The notes below the pieces were generated by a model. It had not been told where the DNA came from. It made no database searches and saw only the letters and a program-made list of their open reading frames with translations. The position numbers and the translations under genes were made by a program. From Affinundibacterium seohonense (GTDB taxonomy: Bacteria > Pseudomonadota > Gammaproteobacteria > Burkholderiales > Burkholderiaceae_D), in contig NZ_JACOFW010000019.1 in assembly GCF_014284305.1 (NCBI RefSeq), positions 1 through 64,000 on the forward strand: a stretch of 64,000 bases of DNA, read 5' to 3'. This document shows positions 21,301 to 48,017 of this stretch, piece after piece; positions within the stretch are counted from its first letter, which is position 1; each line of letters opens with the position of its first letter.

Positions 21301-22518
21301 TTAGGCGGCTGCAGAAATATTTTTAGCCCAAACCAATGCAGATAAATGCGCCTTATTCACATCAATAGGAGACACTTTGAGCGTTTCTGCAATCGAAGAC
21401 ACTAACATGCTATTTAATTCACAGGCTTCAGCCAGTGCAAGATAAGGGCCATAAACGCCGCTTCTTGATACCAAGGCCTCTACCACAGGTTCAGGCAGCT
21501 GAATCGTTGACAAGACTTCTTCCATCGGAATTCCCAACAAGCGATCCAATAAAGAAAACATACCCGCAACAAATAAATTTTCCGCTTCACTCTTAGACAT
21601 AAACGGCTGCCCAAGGATCTCAGCAAAGCGACCACGCACAATTGCCGTTTCTAAAAGCACTGGAGAATTACCACTCGTACTAGCGGTTGCCAACAACAAA
21701 GAGAGCCAACGATACAAGGGGCTATAGCCCAAAATGGTGACAGCATGCTTTAGTGACTGCACCTCAGTTCGCAAACCAAAGCCTGCAGAATTAATATATC
21801 TCAATAATTTATAGGCCAAAGCAGCATCACGTTTGACGACGGTTTCTAATTGTTGGATATCCGCATTTTTGCGGATCATTTCCATTAGCTGCAGAATCGT
21901 TGTTTGAGTCGTATTTAAGCCTTTTTGCGCAACATTTGGCCTCGGCGTCAAATGTAGTTTTCCAACAAAACTAGATAGCCCTAACGCGGCACACGCATCG
22001 AAATCTTGCCAACTTCCGACATTGCGGGCGACCATCTGCACATTGGATTGTTTTAGTGCAGCATACATTTTCGCTTGCGCCGCCAAGTTACTAGCGTCCA
22101 ACTGCACTTCAAAGTGCGTAATCAATGAAAAGAACGAGCGTTCCAATGCAGAAATATCCGCATTTTTAAGGCAAATACCAAAGCCTAAAGCCCGCAGCTC
22201 TTTGATAGCTGAAAGCGCAACTTCATCACCGAAATAGCGCTTAGAAAAAATTAGGACAGTGTTTTTGGGGGACAGTTGACGTAAACCTTCGGCTTGTAAT
22301 AAGCCTGGGACAGCTTCCAAAAAAATGAGGCTATCACCTAGCAAGAAACCTTTTTCATCGTCATTAAACTCATCTGCAACAAAAGACATTAACGAACTTA
22401 ACGCAGCAGTATCAAGCTCAGCGGTCTTTGCATTATCTTGCCACGACAATTGAAAACCAATCACACGTTGTGAAGGGTCAAGCAATGGCTCCCGAACAAT
22501 GAACTTTACATCACTCAT
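21301..22518 (-). CDS. EAL/HDOD domain signalling protein (YuxH-like)
   Basis: A 405-residue protein of the type with a degenerate EAL domain at the N-terminus (REPLLDPSQRVIGFQLSW, then ELRALGFGICLKNADISALE) and a C-terminal HDOD domain (about 200-400: QLMEMIRKNADIQQLETVVK, LLRYINSAGFGLRTEVQSLK, AVTILGYSPLYRWLSLLL). The EAL signature itself and the metal-binding residues are not seen, so c-di-GMP hydrolysis is unlikely. Such proteins are usually regulatory scaffolds. It follows the dead cheZ and precedes flhB by 226 bp, so a link to motility is suggested by position only. Confidence 0.85.
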   Translation of the reverse strand: MSDVKFIVREPLLDPSQRVIGFQLSWQDNAKTAELDTAALSSLMSFVADEFNDDEKGFLLGDSLIFLEAVPGLLQAEGLRQLSPKNTVLIFSKRYFGDEVALSAIKELRALGFGICLKNADISALERSFFSLITHFEVQLDASNLAAQAKMYAALKQSNVQMVARNVGSWQDFDACAALGLSSFVGKLHLTPRPNVAQKGLNTTQTTILQLMEMIRKNADIQQLETVVKRDAALAYKLLRYINSAGFGLRTEVQSLKHAVTILGYSPLYRWLSLLLATASTSGNSPVLLETAIVRGRFAEILGQPFMSKSEAENLFVAGMFSLLDRLLGIPMEEVLSTIQLPEPVVEALVSRSGVYGPYLALAEACELNSMLVSSIAETLKVSPIDVNKAHLSALVWAKNISAAA

Positions 22519-22538: not shown

Positions 22539-23090
22539 TTAGAAACTAAGGCTGCCTAACCGATCATCAACCTGCCCGCATAAGTGACAACGTCAAACTT
22601 GCCTCTGAGTTATTTGTGCCCCATTAGAAGGCCAACCATACGAGAACGCTCTACTTTGCCGGAAGAATACTCAATCAATAACTGAACAAATTGTTGTTCG
22701 ACATTCTGAATCAGCTCAGTGATTTTTCTAACAATTTGCTTAGTCAATCCCTGAAAACATTACACAATCACAACATCAATCAAGTGTGCTTTCGTTTTAC
22801 GAAAGTGATCAGTTGCTAAGACTGAGCAGTAAGGATCGCACATCAACATCCATTGCTTAGTGAAAAATCGCAGCAACGGTCGCATTTAATGCCCCACGTA
22901 CCGCCTTCACTGACGCTCTCACAACGAAATCGAGTCGATCACGCGCATCCGAAACATCCTAAGTAGCACGCTCAAATAACTTATCCAATCCCAACCCGCG
23001 AAAGCTATCATGAAGCACTCTAGTGAAGTGACCTACACGTCTTTACAATTCGTCGTGTTGAGAATGAACGCCAAGATCGATTTCCACTTT
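22539..23090 (-). pseudogene. cheZ: Decayed cheZ (CheY-P phosphatase) remnant
   Basis: The 604-bp gap after cheY has no intact frame, but minus-strand translation gives CheZ block by block. ERAT*DVSDARDRLDFVV matches the enteric AEAIPDARDRLYYVV region. KAHLIDVVIV*CFQGLTKQI matches AQLLEIMMAQDFQDLTGQV with identical spacing. QNVEQQFVQLLIEYS follows, and VDDRLGSLSF at the end matches the CheY-binding tail VDDLLDSLGF. In-frame stops are at 23043-23045 (TAA), 22959-22961 (TAG), 22760-22762 (TAA) and 22610-22612 (TAA). At least one single-base frameshift lies just before the VDD tail. No start codon was found. The catalytic Asp and Gln of the phosphatase motif are changed or lost. Confidence 0.92.
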
Positions 23091-23113: not shown

Positions 23114-23509
23114 CTATGCAGGCTTGCCTAATTTTTCAAAGATTTTGGAAAGTTTTTCATCTAACGTTGCTGCGGTAAATGGTTTTACAACATAGCCATT
23201 TGCTCCCGCTTGCGCGGCTGCAATAATGTTTTCTTTCTTCGCTTCTGCCGTCACCATCAATACCGGCAATTTGGCTAAAGCTGGATCCGCGCGGATATGT
23301 TGCAACATAGTGAGGCCATCCATGTTGGGCATATTCCAATCTGAAATCACAAAATCAAAATCACCACTCTTTAACTTTGCCAAACCAAGCGCGCCGTCTT
23401 CCGCTTCATCGACGTTCGAATACCCAAGTTCCTTCAACAGATTACGTACGATACGACGCATCGTCGAAAAATCGTCAACTACTAAAAATTTGAGGTTTTG
23501 ATCAGCCAT
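23114..23509 (-). CDS. cheY: Chemotaxis response regulator CheY
   Basis: CheY-P binds the flagellar switch. The 131-residue single-domain receiver has the acidic pocket ([11 protein letters not shown]), phosphoacceptor Asp in [17 protein letters not shown], Thr in [12 protein letters not shown] and Lys in [12 protein letters not shown]. It lies directly upstream of the dead cheZ, the classic cheY-cheZ arrangement, and 95 bp after cheB. A weak sigma-28-like -10 (ACCGATAA) lies at 23554-23547. Confidence 0.97.
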
Positions 23510-23604: not shown

Positions 23605-24681
23605 TTAAACCCTCAGTGCACGACTGCCATGCTGATCTAAATACTGCAAAACACGATGTGGCAGCTCATTTAATGGCGCGATATCATTGACGGCACCAAC
23701 AGCAATTGCTTCCCTTGGCATGCCAAAGACCACACAACTCGCTTCATCTTGCGCAAAATTGTACGCCCCAGAATTCTTCATTTCTAACATTCCTTCGGCA
23801 CCATCTTTTCCCATCCCAGTTAAAATAACACCGACAGCATTTTTACCGGCGTACTTGGCCGCGGAGCGAAACAAAACATCGACAGATGGACGATGTCGAT
23901 TTACTGGCGCGTCGTCACTCAATTCAGTAACATAATTCGCACCACTACGAGCAAGCAACAGATGCGAATGACCAGGTGCAATATAGGCATGTCCTGGCAA
24001 AATACGCTCACCACCGACGGCTTCAGAAACCGAAATTTTACACAAACCGTCTAAACGCTTAGCAAACGACTTGGTGAACCCCTCTGGCATATGTTGCGTG
24101 ATCAAAATACCCGGACAATCCGAAGGCATTTGACTTAGAAAATTTTTGATGGCCTCGGTTCCACCAGTTGAAGCACCGACAATGATTAACTTTTCACTAC
24201 TAACTAATGGGTTCCTTACTGAGGGAAGCACTGCATGTGCCTGCGACGTTGCAGCACTTGTACTAACCGCTCTCGACCGAATTTTTGCTTTCGATGCTGC
24301 ACGAATTTTGTCAGTGATGACTTGAGCATATTCCAACATGCCGCTTTGAATCGAAAGCTTGGGTTTAGTCACAAAGTCAACTGCCCCCAACTCTAATGCA
24401 CGCATCGTAATTTCGGACCCACGTTCAGTTAAGGACGACACCATAATCACAGGCATTGGACGCAATCGCATTAACTTCTCTAAAAAATCGAGGCCGTCCA
24501 TTTTTGGCATTTCAACATCTAAGGTCAGCACATCGGGATTACATTGTTTAATTAATTCCCTTGCAACCAAAGGATCAGGCGCCACGCCAACTACTTCCAT
24601 ATCGTTCTGTGAGCGAATGATTTCACTCAAGATACTTCGTATCAGCGCAGAATCATCGATGATCAATACTTTAATTTTCAT
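23605..24681 (-). CDS. cheB: Chemoreceptor methylesterase/deamidase CheB
   Basis: CheB demethylates and deamidates chemoreceptors when phosphorylated by CheA. The 358-residue protein has an N-terminal receiver ([17 protein letters not shown], Asp in [17 protein letters not shown]) and a C-terminal esterase domain with the serine in [12 protein letters not shown], the histidine in [13 protein letters not shown] and the aspartate in [11 protein letters not shown]. It follows cheD by 72 bp. Confidence 0.97.
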
Positions 24682-24753: not shown

Positions 24754-25362
24754 TCAAAATAAATCAATATCACCACCAACTGGCGCACTTTTCAATCGAC
24801 TTGCATAATCGAGTTCACGTTTTTTCAAAGTATCGTTATGCTCAACTTTTAACTTTTTCACCAAAACTTTACCGGTCCTCGGAAAGAAGTACACTTTACG
24901 CGGATAAATATCATTTAAATCTTCCGCAATCACTCGCATTCTTTCCATCCGCAGATAGTCCAATACAAATTTCGCATTTCTTTCACCCACATTAATGGCA
25001 GTGAAACCACGCAATACATTACCACCACCAAAAACCTTCGCCTCCATATTTTCTCGGCGAGCTCCAGCTTTCAGCAATTCGTTAATCAATACTTCCATGG
25101 CGTAAGTTCCATAGCGCATCGAAGCCGACACCGGGTTTTCGGAGTTCTCACCACCATCAGGTAGCATAAAATGATTCATGCCACCGACACCGGAAACACG
25201 ATCACGAATACAAGCTGATACGCACGATCCTAAAACCGTCACAATCAACATGTCTTTCCCGGTAAAATAAAATTCCCCAGGTAAAATCTTAGCCGCATCA
25301 CAATCAAAAGTGCGATCATAATAAACGTTAGTGGCAAAGTGTTCTTCACTAAACTGACTCAT
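24754..25362 (-). CDS. cheD: Chemoreceptor glutamine deamidase CheD
   Basis: A 202-residue CheD with the catalytic cysteine in VTVLGSCVSACIRD and histidine in GGMNHFMLPDG. It deamidates receptor glutamines. The C-terminus extends past the usual core and ends VGGDIDLF, closely similar to the end of the QDLT protein at 29361-29909. No cheC is seen in the window. It lies 3 bp after cheR and is part of the che operon. Confidence 0.95.
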   Translation of the reverse strand: MSQFSEEHFATNVYYDRTFDCDAAKILPGEFYFTGKDMLIVTVLGSCVSACIRDRVSGVGGMNHFMLPDGGENSENPVSASMRYGTYAMEVLINELLKAGARRENMEAKVFGGGNVLRGFTAINVGERNAKFVLDYLRMERMRVIAEDLNDIYPRKVYFFPRTGKVLVKKLKVEHNDTLKKRELDYASRLKSAPVGGDIDLF

Positions 25363-25365
25363 GGA

Positions 25366-26253
25366 TCACCCTTTATTTAAATCATAAGAATTCGACTTCT
25401 TACGTTTATCTTCTTGACTCGCCAACACATAAACCGTTTTGCCGCGCAATTTAAAATCATCAGAAACATATAAGAAATTCTCTGAATGACCTGCAAACAA
25501 TAAACCATCGGACTTCAACAGCGGTACAAATTTCTTTAAGATGCTAGATTGAGTTGGCTTGTCAAAATAAATCATGACATTTCTGCAGAAAATTGCATCA
25601 AACTCACCACTTAAGCTCCAACGATCTTCCAACAAATTTAGTGACTCAAAACTAATTAGCTGTCTTAGCTCCGGCCTTACCAGAACAGTACCTTCATTTT
25701 TCCCTCTGCCTTTCAAAAAATACTTTCGAACAATATCGTTCGGCAATTTTTCGATTCTATCCGCGTTGTAAACACCTCGTGCCGCAACGCTAAGTACATT
25801 GGTATCAATGTCGGTCGCAATTATTTCTACATTGGGCTTAATAGTTCCCAATGCTTCACAAATACAAATCGCAATCGAATATGGCTCCTCTCCCGTCGAA
25901 CTAGCGGAACACCAAACTCTTAAATGTCCGGATTTCTTCTTTACATGTTCAGCCAAAATCGGGAAATGGTGTTCTTCACGAAAAAATGAAGTTAAATTCG
26001 TCGTCAACGCATTCGTAAATGACTCCCATTCATTGCTATTAATCTCTCGTTCCAGCATATCTAGATAAATAGAAAACGAGTTTATTCCCGTGGCACGCAG
26101 TCTTCTCGCAAGCCTGCTGTACACCATTTCCTGCTTACTATCCGACAAAGAGATTCCAGCACGTTGATAAATCAAACTACGTACACGATCAAAATCGCGA
26201 TTGTTGAATGTAAACTCTTTCTCACCGTCGGATCGATCTGCTGGCTTTGCCAT
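25366..26253 (-). CDS. cheR: Chemoreceptor methyltransferase CheR
   Basis: CheR methylates receptor glutamates with S-adenosylmethionine. The product is 295 residues from the ATG at 26253; a TTG 33 bases earlier opens the same frame but is less likely. The N-terminal helical domain (DRVRSLIYQRAGISLSDSK) is followed by the methyltransferase domain with VWCSASSTGEEPYSIAI, EIIATDIDTNVLSVA, FDAIFCRNVMIYF and LFAGHSENF. It sits between cheW and cheD. Confidence 0.96.
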   Translation of the reverse strand: MAKPADRSDGEKEFTFNNRDFDRVRSLIYQRAGISLSDSKQEMVYSRLARRLRATGINSFSIYLDMLEREINSNEWESFTNALTTNLTSFFREEHHFPILAEHVKKKSGHLRVWCSASSTGEEPYSIAICICEALGTIKPNVEIIATDIDTNVLSVAARGVYNADRIEKLPNDIVRKYFLKGRGKNEGTVLVRPELRQLISFESLNLLEDRWSLSGEFDAIFCRNVMIYFDKPTQSSILKKFVPLLKSDGLLFAGHSENFLYVSDDFKLRGKTVYVLASQEDKRKKSNSYDLNKG

Positions 26254-26302
26254 TCGTTTTTTCCACTTCCCAAAAATTTCCTGCAATTCAGAGCAGTTAT
26301 AC

Positions 26303-26809
26303 TCAATCCGCGTGATCCATTAGACCCATCTCAGGACTAGACATCAATTTTTCGATATCAACCAATATCAACATACGCTCTTCTAATGTACCAAGGCCAA
26401 TCAAGAAATCATTGTTAAATGTCGTATTCATCTCTGGAGCAGGACGAACCTGTGCAGGAAGCAGTGTCATCACGTCTGACACGCTATCGACCACCATACC
26501 AACCACTCGAGTACCAATATTGAGAATAATCACCACGGTCAATTGATCATAGGTCGGCGTACCTAAATTAAACTTAATACGCATATCAACAATTGGTACG
26601 ATAATTCCGCGCAAGTTAATGACACCCTTTAAAAACTCGGGTGCATTGGCGATCCTGGTCACAGCCTCGTATCCACGAATTTCCTGAACCTTTAAAATAT
26701 CAATCCCATACTCTTCATTTCCGAGAGTAAAAGCTAAGAACTCATGCGTAGTAAGGTCGCCATTCTCGGATTGTATTTTCTTACCTAAGCCATCTGAGTT
26801 TTGTATCAT
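26303..26809 (-). CDS. cheW: Chemotaxis coupling protein CheW
   Basis: CheW links receptors to CheA. From ATG at 26809 (AGGA seven bases upstream) the product has 168 residues, forming a single CheW SH3-like domain: [54 protein letters not shown]. An earlier in-frame TTG is the alternative start. It lies 37 bp after cheA. Confidence 0.97.
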
Positions 26810-26846
26810 GATCAATTCCTCTTAAAACTTATTAATCTCAAAAAAT

Positions 26847-28898
26847 TTAACGTACCGAGCGCAATATTGCTGCCACATCCAAAATAAAGGAAACACCGCC
26901 ATCACCTAAAATTGTGGCGCCCGAAATGCCAGGAATCTTGCGATAGTTTGACTCGATATTTTTTACAACAACTTGTTGTTGACCTACCAGATCATCGACA
27001 AATAGAGCCGCTTTTTTTCCATCGACCTCGACAATGACGGTAATGCCATCAGCAGGATCTGTGTGTTTTGGAACTATATTGAAAGTTTCAAACAATGGTA
27101 TTAAAGGAAGATATTCGTGACGAATTTTGATTACCCGCCCTTTGCCGTTAATTTCTTTAATATCTTCAATTTGAGGTTGTAAAGACTCTACAACAAAACC
27201 TAATGGCAATATATAAATCTCTTCACCAACTTTGATAGACATACCGTCCAAAATAGCCAAAGTTAAAGGCAAGGAAATTGTGATCGTGGTTCCAAAACCT
27301 TTCGCCGAACGAATATCAACGACACCGCCCATTTGCGTGATATTCCGTTTAACGACGTCCATACCGACGCCACGCCCAGAAACATCCGTCACAACTTCTG
27401 CAGTCGAAAATCCTGGCGCAAAAATCAACTGCCACACGTCTGAATCCGACATGGAATCAGAAACGGCAAGCCCACTTTGCTTTGCTTTTGCTAGAATTTT
27501 GTCACGATGCAATCCACCACCGTCATCACACACTTCAATTACGATATTTCCACCTTGATGCACAGCGGACAGTGACAACTTACCAGCTTCACTTTTTCCA
27601 CTTTCTAAGCGGGTCGCTGGCATTTCGATTCCATGATCAATACTATTACGTACTAGGTGCGTCAAAGGGTCAACAATTCTTTCAATCAAGCCCTTATCTA
27701 ACTCAGTTGAAGCACCATAAGTCACAAATTCGACTTTTTTGCCTAGTTTAGAAGCAAGATCTCTCACCATACGTGGAAATCTAGAAAAAACGTAATCCAT
27801 AGGCATCATCCGTATGGACATCACCGCTTCTTGCAAATCTCGAGTATTGCGCGTGAGATGCGCAACGCTGCTCAGCAAACGCTCATTCGAAACCGGATCA
27901 AGATCCTGAGTACGCTGCGTCAACATAGCTTGGGTAATAACCAACTCACCTATAAGATTAATGATCTGGTCAACCTTTTCAATACCCACACGAATCGTCG
28001 TAGATTCCTGCGCACCATGACTCTTCTCAGATTCTTTTTTGTGATGATTCTTTGCTTGAATCGCAGCGAGCTCTTGCTGAGCGACTTTTTCTGCTTCTAA
28101 TTTGGCTTTGTCAGAAGCATCTTGATTTTCTAAAGGTGGGAACATCGACTCTATCGGTTCAAAGAAACCGTAGCCCAACTCATCTTCAGTAAGTTGTTTT
28201 TCTACACCTATTGCTTGAGCTGACTGTTCACTCTGAATGCTCATTTTGTCGGCATCTACAATAAATGAACAGACAGCAAAAATATCGTCTTCCGTACCAT
28301 TGGTATTGAGCAAAATAGAATCAAGACCTTGCTCAGTTTTTTCGCTTCGCGCAAGTCCTAAAAGACTCAATTCAGAAGTTAGGAGATCCAGATCTGCTAC
28401 TTTTACATCATTAAAGCTCACTCTGAAACAGTGATGATATGTCTCATGCTCTTTTGAGGATAGGCTAATATGTGCCAGACTTAAAGCAGGAACCGCCTTG
28501 GGCGCAAGATCGTCCTGCACAAAGGACTGCAATAACATTCTCACGTCAGCAACAGCATCAAGATCAACCGCAGTCCCCAATCGATGTCCATCTAGCTGCA
28601 TTTTAAGTATGTCTTTTGCAGCTAAAAACGCATCAACATGTTCTGCAGTTAAATGCATTTCACCTTTGCGAATCTTGTCCAGCAAATTTTCTAAAATATG
28701 CGTAACTTCCGTCATATCGGACAGACCGAAAGTCGATGCGCCGCCTTTGATTGAATGGGCAGCACGAAAAATCGCGTTCAAATCTTCAGGATCTGGAGAT
28801 AAAATTTCAACGCCTAATAATAACTTCTCCATCTCGGCGAGAAGTTCTTCAGCCTCATCAAAAAAAACCTGGAAGAACTGACTCATGTCAATCGTCAT
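26847..28898 (-). CDS. cheA: Chemotaxis histidine kinase CheA
   Basis: The 683-residue kinase has an N-terminal HPt domain with the phosphorylated histidine in FRAAHSIKGGASTFG (about residue 49), a linker/P2 region, the dimerisation helices with LIGELVITQAMLTQR, the HATPase domain with N box LVRNSIDHGIEM (about 415), G1 VCDDGGGL and G2 SGRGVGMDVV, and a C-terminal CheW-like domain ending LDVAAILRSVR. The ATG at 28898 is preceded by GGTGAG; an upstream in-frame codon at 28922 would only add MCEQWGEI. Confidence 0.97.
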   Translation of the reverse strand: MTIDMSQFFQVFFDEAEELLAEMEKLLLGVEILSPDPEDLNAIFRAAHSIKGGASTFGLSDMTEVTHILENLLDKIRKGEMHLTAEHVDAFLAAKDILKMQLDGHRLGTAVDLDAVADVRMLLQSFVQDDLAPKAVPALSLAHISLSSKEHETYHHCFRVSFNDVKVADLDLLTSELSLLGLARSEKTEQGLDSILLNTNGTEDDIFAVCSFIVDADKMSIQSEQSAQAIGVEKQLTEDELGYGFFEPIESMFPPLENQDASDKAKLEAEKVAQQELAAIQAKNHHKKESEKSHGAQESTTIRVGIEKVDQIINLIGELVITQAMLTQRTQDLDPVSNERLLSSVAHLTRNTRDLQEAVMSIRMMPMDYVFSRFPRMVRDLASKLGKKVEFVTYGASTELDKGLIERIVDPLTHLVRNSIDHGIEMPATRLESGKSEAGKLSLSAVHQGGNIVIEVCDDGGGLHRDKILAKAKQSGLAVSDSMSDSDVWQLIFAPGFSTAEVVTDVSGRGVGMDVVKRNITQMGGVVDIRSAKGFGTTITISLPLTLAILDGMSIKVGEEIYILPLGFVVESLQPQIEDIKEINGKGRVIKIRHEYLPLIPLFETFNIVPKHTDPADGITVIVEVDGKKAALFVDDLVGQQQVVVKNIESNYRKIPGISGATILGDGGVSFILDVAAILRSVR

Positions 28899-28946
28899 TA
28901 TCTCACCCCATTGTTCACACAAATATTTGGCAAATATCTCTTCGTA

Positions 28947-29312
28947 TCAACCAATAACTTTCTTTACCACTTCAGTCAGCTTTTGTGGATCAAATGGTTT
29001 TACCAACCAACCATTGGCCCCTGCTGCTCGACCTTTTGCTTTCATATCGTCGCTAGATTCCGTCGTTAGCATCAAAATCGGAACCCGCTGATATGTTGGC
29101 AAAGCGCGCAACGACTTAATCAAAGTCAGGCCATCCATACGTGGCATATTTTGGTCAGTGAGTACTAAGTCGACGACTTGATTCTTGGCTTTTTCAAGTC
29201 CATCTTGACCATCGATGGCTTCGATTACTTGATATCCGGCAGCCTTCAAACTAAATGCCACCATTTGACGCAGAGATCCAGAATCGTCAACCGCTAAAAT
29301 TGTTTTGGCCAT
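28947..29312 (-). CDS. CheY-like response regulator (second single-domain receiver)
   Basis: A 121-residue receiver beginning MAKTILAVDDSGSLRQMV, with phosphoacceptor Asp in LVLTDQNMPRMDGLTLI, Thr in LMLTTESSDDMK and Lys in GWLVKPFDPQKL. It lies 48 bp before cheA. It is distinct from cheY at 23114-23509 and could be a phosphate sink or a second motor regulator. Two further in-frame start codons lie immediately upstream (29315 and 29318); 29312 gives the best spacing from GGAG. Confidence 0.92.
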   Translation of the reverse strand: MAKTILAVDDSGSLRQMVAFSLKAAGYQVIEAIDGQDGLEKAKNQVVDLVLTDQNMPRMDGLTLIKSLRALPTYQRVPILMLTTESSDDMKAKGRAAGANGWLVKPFDPQKLTEVVKKVIG

Positions 29313-29360
29313 CATCACTCCATTGAGAAAAATCGTGAAAACTCACACTTTAATTAGTAC

Positions 29361-29909
29361 TTAAAACAATTCGATATCACCGCTGTTTAAATGTTGTTGA
29401 TTTACTGTTTTACGCAACAAGCTCTTAAGCTCGATACTTTGCTGTTCGAGTTTGTCAGTGATTTCCGTCAATACCTGAGAAATTTCATCCATGCCACCAT
29501 CACTAGGAATAACATTACCAACGACGTCCAAAGTCGAAAGCAGTTCACGCAATCCCGCGCTTCTCTGCACCGTCCTAGAAATTAATTGGCTTGTCAAATC
29601 TTGAAATTGCAGGCTAGTTACAGCACGATTGATATGCACCGCAATATCTGTTTGAATCTTCGCCAATTTATCAACATTATCTTTAGGAATTAAGCCAGTA
29701 TTGACCAGCTCAAGTATTTGCGCTTCCTGAGAAGTAATTGAAGAGTGCAAATCTAAAAAATTTTCACCCAACTTCTCAATAGCTTCTGCCAACAGAATTG
29801 TGGTTTGAACCAGGTCCGTTTCCACCTCTAACAGATGCGCAACACCGTGGTCAGAAACCCCTGACAACAGTTGCTTAACTTGCGAGCCCAAGTTTTTTTT
29901 CTTCGACAT
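29361..29909 (-). CDS. CheZ-like 'QDLT' chemotaxis protein
   Basis: A 182-residue, almost all-helical protein. Around residue 110 it has AVTSLQFQDLTSQLISRTVQ, which matches the CheZ phosphatase helix (enteric DFQDLTGQVIKRM) including the catalytic glutamine position, though the aspartate one residue before Phe-Gln is Gln here. The C-terminus ends NSGDIELF, an acidic-LF tail comparable with the CheZ CheY-binding tail. It sits between motB and the CheY-like/cheA genes. I infer a CheY-P phosphatase or CheY-binding role; nothing in the sequence proves activity. The ATG at 29909 is chosen over an upstream in-frame codon at 29933. Confidence 0.75.
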   Translation of the reverse strand: MSKKKNLGSQVKQLLSGVSDHGVAHLLEVETDLVQTTILLAEAIEKLGENFLDLHSSITSQEAQILELVNTGLIPKDNVDKLAKIQTDIAVHINRAVTSLQFQDLTSQLISRTVQRSAGLRELLSTLDVVGNVIPSDGGMDEISQVLTEITDKLEQQSIELKSLLRKTVNQQHLNSGDIELF

Positions 29910-29969
29910 CTTCAGCGTCCCATTCTGCAACATGATCGTTGCAATTTATGATGCGTTTAATGAGCCATT

Positions 29970-47932: not shown

Positions 47933-48017
47933 GCCCACGTGGCGGAATTGGTAGACGCGCATGGTTCAGGTCCATGTGCCTTCGGGTGTGGGGGTTCGAG
48001 TCCCTCCGTGGGCACCA
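47933..48017 (+). tRNA. tRNA-Leu, anticodon CAG
   Basis: The 85-base gene includes the encoded CCA (48015-48017). The acceptor GCCCACG (47933-47939) pairs with CGTGGGC (48007-48013). The D arm GGCGGAATTGGTAGACGC is that of leucine tRNAs. The anticodon stem CATGG/CCATG encloses loop TTCAGGT, giving anticodon CAG for CUG codons. A long variable arm (around TGCCTTCGGGTGT) and the TTCGAGT T-loop complete a class II tRNA. It has its own promoter and terminator. Confidence 0.97.

Follow-up and report, generated by a model that had tools for sequence, protein, structure and literature searches.

Gene loss buffered by a paralogue is a general notion, and the event described here, the loss of a cheZ gene from a flagellar chemotaxis operon in the genus Undibacterium, is of an already known kind; in the titles and abstract openings of the literature, nothing on this particular cheZ loss was found. 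The likeness to paralogue-buffered loss lies in one copy having been lost repeatedly with another intact nearly everywhere, whereas the copies here are old and divergent and sit in different operons, the survivor beside a second cheA. For the proteins concerned, we take the catalytic CheZ residues in E. coli to be D143 and Q147, and N59 and E89 of CheY have a meaning for its slow self-dephosphorylation. In the flagellar che cluster of Comamonas testosteroni, CheA, CheW, CheR, CheB and CheD are accompanied by two CheY proteins, one of which adjoins cheA by locus tag (PMC6391922). That protein, CheY1 of Comamonas testosteroni, accepts phosphate from CheA and rapidly gives it up again; according to the authors, it might be a phosphate sink (PMC6391922). 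The arrangement in the Undibacterium window (the whole stretch of 64,000 nucleotides that was analysed) is alike, and its cheY2 would by position be the counterpart of Comamonas testosteroni CheY1; class F7 is the assignment made for the Comamonas testosteroni cluster (PMC6391922). A CheZ is described for the che cluster of Comamonas testosteroni (PMC6391922), whereas in the window this gene is dead.

The operon on the minus strand of the window runs flhD-flhC-methyltransferase-motA-motB-190 aa protein-cheY2-cheA-cheW-cheR-cheD-cheB-cheY1, followed by the cheZ relic and then HDOD protein-flhB-flhA-flhF-flhG-fliA (Table 1). Names rest on Pfam for ten of the proteins and on a reading of the sequences for the others, including cheR and cheW, which are named also by their place. 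The relic adjoins the intact cheY1 directly downstream, and CheY1 scores 242 bits against the NCBIfam CheY equivalog, well over the cut-off of 189. A consensus terminator scan returned none inside the relic, and at the gathering score Rfam matched nothing in the window except a tRNA gene at 47933-48014 on the plus strand.

Table 1. Coordinates of the operon cheZ relic, its stops, its operon neighbours and the other CheZ genes of the same genome.
Feature	Position	Strand	Remarks
cheZ pseudogene, operon copy ("class C")	22539..23087	-	PF04344 pieces, orthologue alignment, decay test
TAA	23043..23045	-	old reading frame, 5' block; sequence and codon alignment
TAG	22959..22961	-	old reading frame, 5' block; sequence and codon alignment
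TAA (fifth stop)	22857..22859	-	old reading frame, 5' block; sequence and codon alignment
TAA	22760..22762	-	old reading frame, middle block, just before catalytic helix
TAA	22610..22612	-	running frame of middle block, past small deletion; outside old frame of alignment
HDOD-domain protein, weak EAL match	21301..22518	-	HDOD 6.2e-14; downstream of relic; synteny marker
cheY1, intact, E. coli-type	23114..23509	-	Response_reg 1.6e-31; NCBIfam CheY 242 bits; D57, N59, T87, E89, Y106, K109 present
cheB, intact	23605..24681	-	
cheD, intact	24754..25362	-	
cheR, intact	25366..26286	-	named by its place
cheW, intact	26303..26815	-	named by its place
cheA with CheY-binding (P2) domain, intact	26847..28922	-	
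cheY2, second response regulator adjoining cheA	28947..29318	-	
190 aa conserved protein, LQFQDLTSQ and C-terminal GDIELF	29361..29933	-	between motB and cheY2
CheZ_A, 268 aa	C1:476313-477119		directly before 598 aa CheA
CheZ_B, 212 aa, orphan	C1:352991-353629		
cheZ-cheA pair	L034:8773-11376 (G000:C1)		no cheY beside pair
orphan cheZ (CheZ_B)	L035:8947-9585 (G000:C1)		

The stretch between cheY1 and the HDOD gene is almost certainly the decayed remains of cheZ. By comparison with Pfam PF04344 (cut-off 30.7 bits), its 5' block (22866-23051) and middle block (22658-22810) scored 46.9 and 39.7 bits, each above the cut-off alone. A genus CheZ profile made from 16 same-spot cheZ genes of other species, one of them truncated, matched the 5' block at E 1e-30 and the middle block at 7e-23, values that belong to a small database. 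No protein-profile match at E<=1 occurred among 480 shuffled gap sequences (20 for each of 24 broken gaps); on the same set, a DNA profile matched twice at E<=10. An earlier sequence-only reading had proposed a cheZ pseudogene directly after an intact cheY and had traced the DARDRL helix, the phosphatase helix, QQFVQLLIEY and the tail VDDRLGSLSF on the minus strand, and both proposals agree with what we found; the comparison with PF04344 was among the checks it had suggested. The relic can be aligned with intact CheZ of the same locus in related species across three regions, namely the 5' domain, the helix with QDLTGQ and the tail that binds CheY; unlike intact CheZ, the relic carries stops, frame changes, an internal deletion and a glycine in place of the catalytic aspartate (QDLTGQ to QGLTKQ, with the glutamine kept).

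Its old start was probably the GTG at 23085-23087, judging by its alignment with the ATG of orthologues including that of U. fentianense, and its old stop is the TAA at 22539-22541 that ends the tail. Four of the five stops fall in the old reading frame, at codons 24, 52, 86 and 148 of the codon alignment to intact orthologues. The sequence-only reading had counted four in-frame stops, all of which are where it placed them; the one at 22610-22612 is in frame only by its way of counting, and its total was one short, as the TAA at 22857-22859 in the 5' frame had been overlooked. It had also put a frameshift before the tail. As observed, one frame is common to the 5' block, with DARDRL, and to the tail, with VDDRLGSLSF, and the middle block (CFQGLTKQI...QQFVQLLIEY) lies in another. 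Relative to U. fentianense, the relic has an internal loss of 80 bp in two pieces (41 and 39) and further deletions of 1, 2 and 1 bp, counted in an alignment from which columns inserted in the relic had been dropped. With no frame through the whole CheZ and a longest open stretch of 49 aa, the relic is unable to make a whole CheZ.

The same spot was then compared across 43 Undibacterium genomes, including U. amnicola (G041), U. fentianense (G045), U. flavidum (G023), U. macrobrachii (G002), U. baiyunense (G043), U. pigrum (G047) and U. terreum (G058). The HDOD marker and cheY1 occurred together in 40, and G007, G017 and G052 (65, 89 and 56% complete), with weak HDOD matches only, were left out. 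Between the two markers, the operon cheZ was open in 15 of the 40 genomes, truncated in one and broken or gone in 24 (window included). Besides the window, relic pieces at E<0.001 with the protein profile were found in G056, G047, G014, G054, G008 and G041; some of the remaining broken gaps gave weaker pieces or none, and U. nitidum has a full-length cheZ match in place. In the truncated case, G006, cheZ is cut by a TAG before the CheY-binding tail, which is perhaps the start of another loss. That gene (L044:7013-7591) has a single TAG and a changed tail, and its assembly is 9% contaminated.

On a tree built from the operon proteins without cheZ, with G006 scored as broken and after removal of G009, which is a long row, and of six far outgroups, the presence of cheZ needs at least 8 changes, and 8 losses on a losses-only reading; the tree comes from a quick search, with some rows covering less than half of the columns and some weak inner branches. 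The window belongs to a clade made up of six genomes that all lack the operon cheZ, among which its relic is by far the most complete, and the sister of this clade, U. fentianense, keeps the gene intact at the same place, a comparison for which the sequence-only reading had called. At 13 landmark positions (presumably meaningful at Y106 and F111), CheY1 was identical in 16 of 16 sequences with an intact operon cheZ and in 25 of 25 in which it is lost, broken or truncated (41 genus sequences). A shift of CheY1 to faster self-dephosphorylation was rejected, there being no change at these 13 positions. Across the genus, the operon cheZ has been lost repeatedly, with next to no change in the CheY that is its likely target.

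The substitution pattern of the relic agrees with the earlier suggestion that it had decayed for some time. In a relative-rate test with U. fentianense as sister and G016 as outgroup, codon positions 1 and 2 together showed 72 changes on the relic branch versus 17 in the sister (p=3e-9), and three other outgroups gave results in agreement. By codon position, the relic branch had 35/185, 37/186 and 46/184 changes and the sister 10, 7 and 35. The similar size of the relic changes at all three positions is expected under little or no selection. For 11 neighbouring genes of the operon region, the ratio at positions 1 and 2 was at most about 1.8-fold (cheD, 7 vs 4; motB, 22 vs 13). The position ratio of the relic was 0.43-0.54 (7 pairs), and that of the intact operon copies among themselves 0.21-0.37 (8 pairs).

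Besides the relic, the genome to which the window belongs has two intact CheZ genes, CheZ_A and CheZ_B. They score 214 and 186 bits against PF04344, with intact frame, catalytic motif and CheY-binding tail; on the NCBIfam CheZ equivalog they reach 223 and 186 bits, both below its cut-off of 257. Since both have retained motif and tail, a CheZ made from another locus most likely still terminates the signal. The sequence-only reading had concluded that termination must use another route, which holds in so far as the operon copy is dead and fails in that it overlooked these two intact genes; as the cell still has CheZ proteins, the surprise is smaller than it had stated. The CheZ copies are about 40-46% identical among the matches listed. 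Within the genome, CheY1 stands alone as a close E. coli-type CheY; the match that comes after it, at 43% identity, is the window's own CheY2.

By score band, CheZ_A is present in 42 of the 43 genus genomes and CheZ_B in 16. The only genome missing CheZ_A is G008 (73% complete), which has CheY1 and in which only CheZ_B was found, and in 15 genus genomes with an intact cheY1 but no operon copy CheZ_A is the sole CheZ. All 16 CheZ_A genes that were read have the motif MMAQDFQDLTGQ and the tail DNLLDSLGF. In the aligned stretch of nine of these 16 there is one stop, taken to lie upstream of the true start, and the CheZ domain itself is stop-free. The position ratio of CheZ_A (0.09-0.24, 9 pairs) is a normal coding pattern, and CheZ_B evolves less tightly (0.26-0.43, 5 pairs). 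In all 16 loci compared, of which 13 belong to other genera and 3 to Undibacterium, cheZ_A and cheA lay side by side, the neighbouring CheA of G061, G064 and G084 being matched in two pieces; within the genus, the pairing was examined in 4 of the 42 genomes with CheZ_A. The cheZ-cheA pair is present in many genera of the family, and, among the matches listed, those to CheZ_A at 50-70% identity are spread widely over the family, on which ground a late acquisition of CheZ_A by Undibacterium was rejected. No chemotaxis gene was seen beside CheZ_B. CheZ_B occurs in 9 of the 24 genomes that lost the operon copy versus 7 of the 15 that kept it; given no association, CheZ_B as a prerequisite for the loss was rejected.

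Outside the genus, a near-full-length cheZ match lies between cheY1 and HDOD in 17 of 17 named loci, counted as matches and apart from their reading frames. These 17 (Solimicrobium, Sapientia, Massilia, Telluria, Herbaspirillum, Herminiimonas, Sulfuriferula and further bacteria) are the loci with both markers in the stretch among 22 compared of 23 named, which were picked by likeness to the window's HDOD protein and are therefore no fair sample. Among family genomes picked for having one CheZ, cheZ is missing from between cheY1 and HDOD in G137, G085 and G114, in G064 cheY1 is followed by flhB with no cheZ between, and G063, G105 and G128 have cheY1 but no operon-type cheZ in the genome. In five other genera (seven genomes), CheY1 is present, the operon cheZ is absent and the one CheZ belongs to class A. 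CheY1 was found at E<=1e-30 in 0 of 20 listed family genomes without a CheZ_A match versus 9 of 9 chosen for one CheZ; for 5 of the 20, Pfam confirmed that no CheZ is present. This co-occurrence fits a need for some CheZ, and it could also be expected if both genes simply accompany flagella. G074 was rejected as a CheY1 genome without any CheZ, because neither CheY1 nor any CheZ was found in this assembly, which is 6% contaminated. The che cluster of G074 (L261, L272) consists of the 190 aa protein, cheY2, cheA, cheW, cheR, cheD and cheB.

The relic decayed near-neutrally, and the account that we consider probable is that its loss was buffered by CheZ_A, and by CheZ_B where present, elsewhere in the genome. 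Once its lineage had separated from that of U. fentianense, the operon cheZ lost its function and then drifted almost without selection, with cheY and the rest of the operon remaining under selection. The operon copy would have been dispensable because CheZ was redundant, with CheZ_A in a separate cheZ-cheA pair and CheZ_B as an orphan. CheZ_A would bind phosphorylated CheY1 through its conserved tail, and its conserved Asp and Gln would remove the phosphate, so that the signal would still be ended by a CheZ made at another locus, with help from CheZ_B in genomes that have it. On balance, we favour CheZ_A as the main substitute for the operon CheZ, on the strength of its sequence and distribution, and gene presence and conservation suggest that it most likely acts on CheY1 in the cell. 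Several observations count against this account. CheZ_A sits with its own CheA, in which Pfam shows no P2 domain, and may serve another partner; CheZ_B does not track the loss of the operon copy; and many family genomes have more than one CheZ (among the matches listed), so that redundancy alone leaves the frequent loss in Undibacterium without an explanation.

A bolder extension, which we regard as rather improbable, is that the ending of the motor signal in the genus and parts of the family has moved from the operon CheZ to the cheZ-cheA pair, that the CheA of the pair is a tether or control of the phosphatase more than a CheY1 kinase, and that the 190 aa QDLTSQ protein is a second phosphatase, hitherto undescribed, that made the operon cheZ dispensable. 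The 598 aa CheA beside CheZ_A showed no CheY-binding P2 domain among its Pfam matches, and for this reason it may act less as a CheY1 kinase than as a tether. The genus offers a natural series of one operon, with cheZ intact, truncated, decayed or deleted and cheY1 nearly unchanged, which permits asking which protein ends the motor signal without the operon CheZ. It also draws attention to the cheZ-cheA pair common to many genera of the family, and it cautions that having no cheZ in the operon does not equal having no CheZ in the cell.

Among other ways of ending the signal, a phosphate sink, in which CheA would drain phosphate from CheY1 backwards into CheY2 and CheY2 would quickly dephosphorylate itself, is unlikely. 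The gene for CheY2 lies next to cheA in all 36 genus clusters reaching this position (4 of 40 do not reach it), and a precedent is suggested for a CheY of Comamonas testosteroni (PMC6391922). However, cheY2 is equally present where cheZ is intact and is no marker of the loss. A CheY2 sink may well act together with CheZ_A.

It is less likely still that the 190 aa protein, as a distant relative or mimic of CheZ, is the phosphatase of the operon. Its Q111, D112, T114 and Q116 are invariant in 24 of 24 aligned sequences, with Asp and Gln at CheZ spacing, and the protein is encoded in 36 of 36 genus clusters covering its position; at E<=0.001 it is matched in 69 of 97 family genomes, with six weak matches (E 1e-14 to 1e-8). 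Against this, its profile resembles that of CheZ weakly (probability 53%, pairwise E 1e-4), the likeness resting on the motif; it ends in GDIELF, unlike the tail of CheZ, and it is present irrespective of cheZ status. The protein had no CheZ match in Pfam (E<=0.1) or NCBIfam (E<=0.01), and no family above the cut-off in Pfam and none in NCBIfam. Going by its motif, it may be a candidate second CheY phosphatase, and both it and the phosphate sink can act alongside CheZ_A. Its C-terminal GDIELF resembles the C-terminal GGDIDLF of CheD from the same operon.

That CheC/CheX-type phosphatases encoded elsewhere act on CheY1 in place of the operon CheZ is very unlikely. A 218 aa protein matches both CheC and CheX (C131:134317-134703) and a further CheX match lies at C76:56768-56998, all above Pfam cut-offs, but these genes are on contigs other than that of the window, and two intact CheZ proteins make them unnecessary. 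The CheC/CheX-like proteins (G000:C131, G000:C76) coexist with CheZ in the same genome. A sequencing or assembly error in an intact gene is hardly credible and was rejected on the substitution pattern of the relic: the genome is a draft of 163 contigs, but the relic has five stops and several indels, it alone of the 12 tested genes has a fourfold excess at codon positions 1 and 2, and the gene is also lost in the five closest relatives on the tree.
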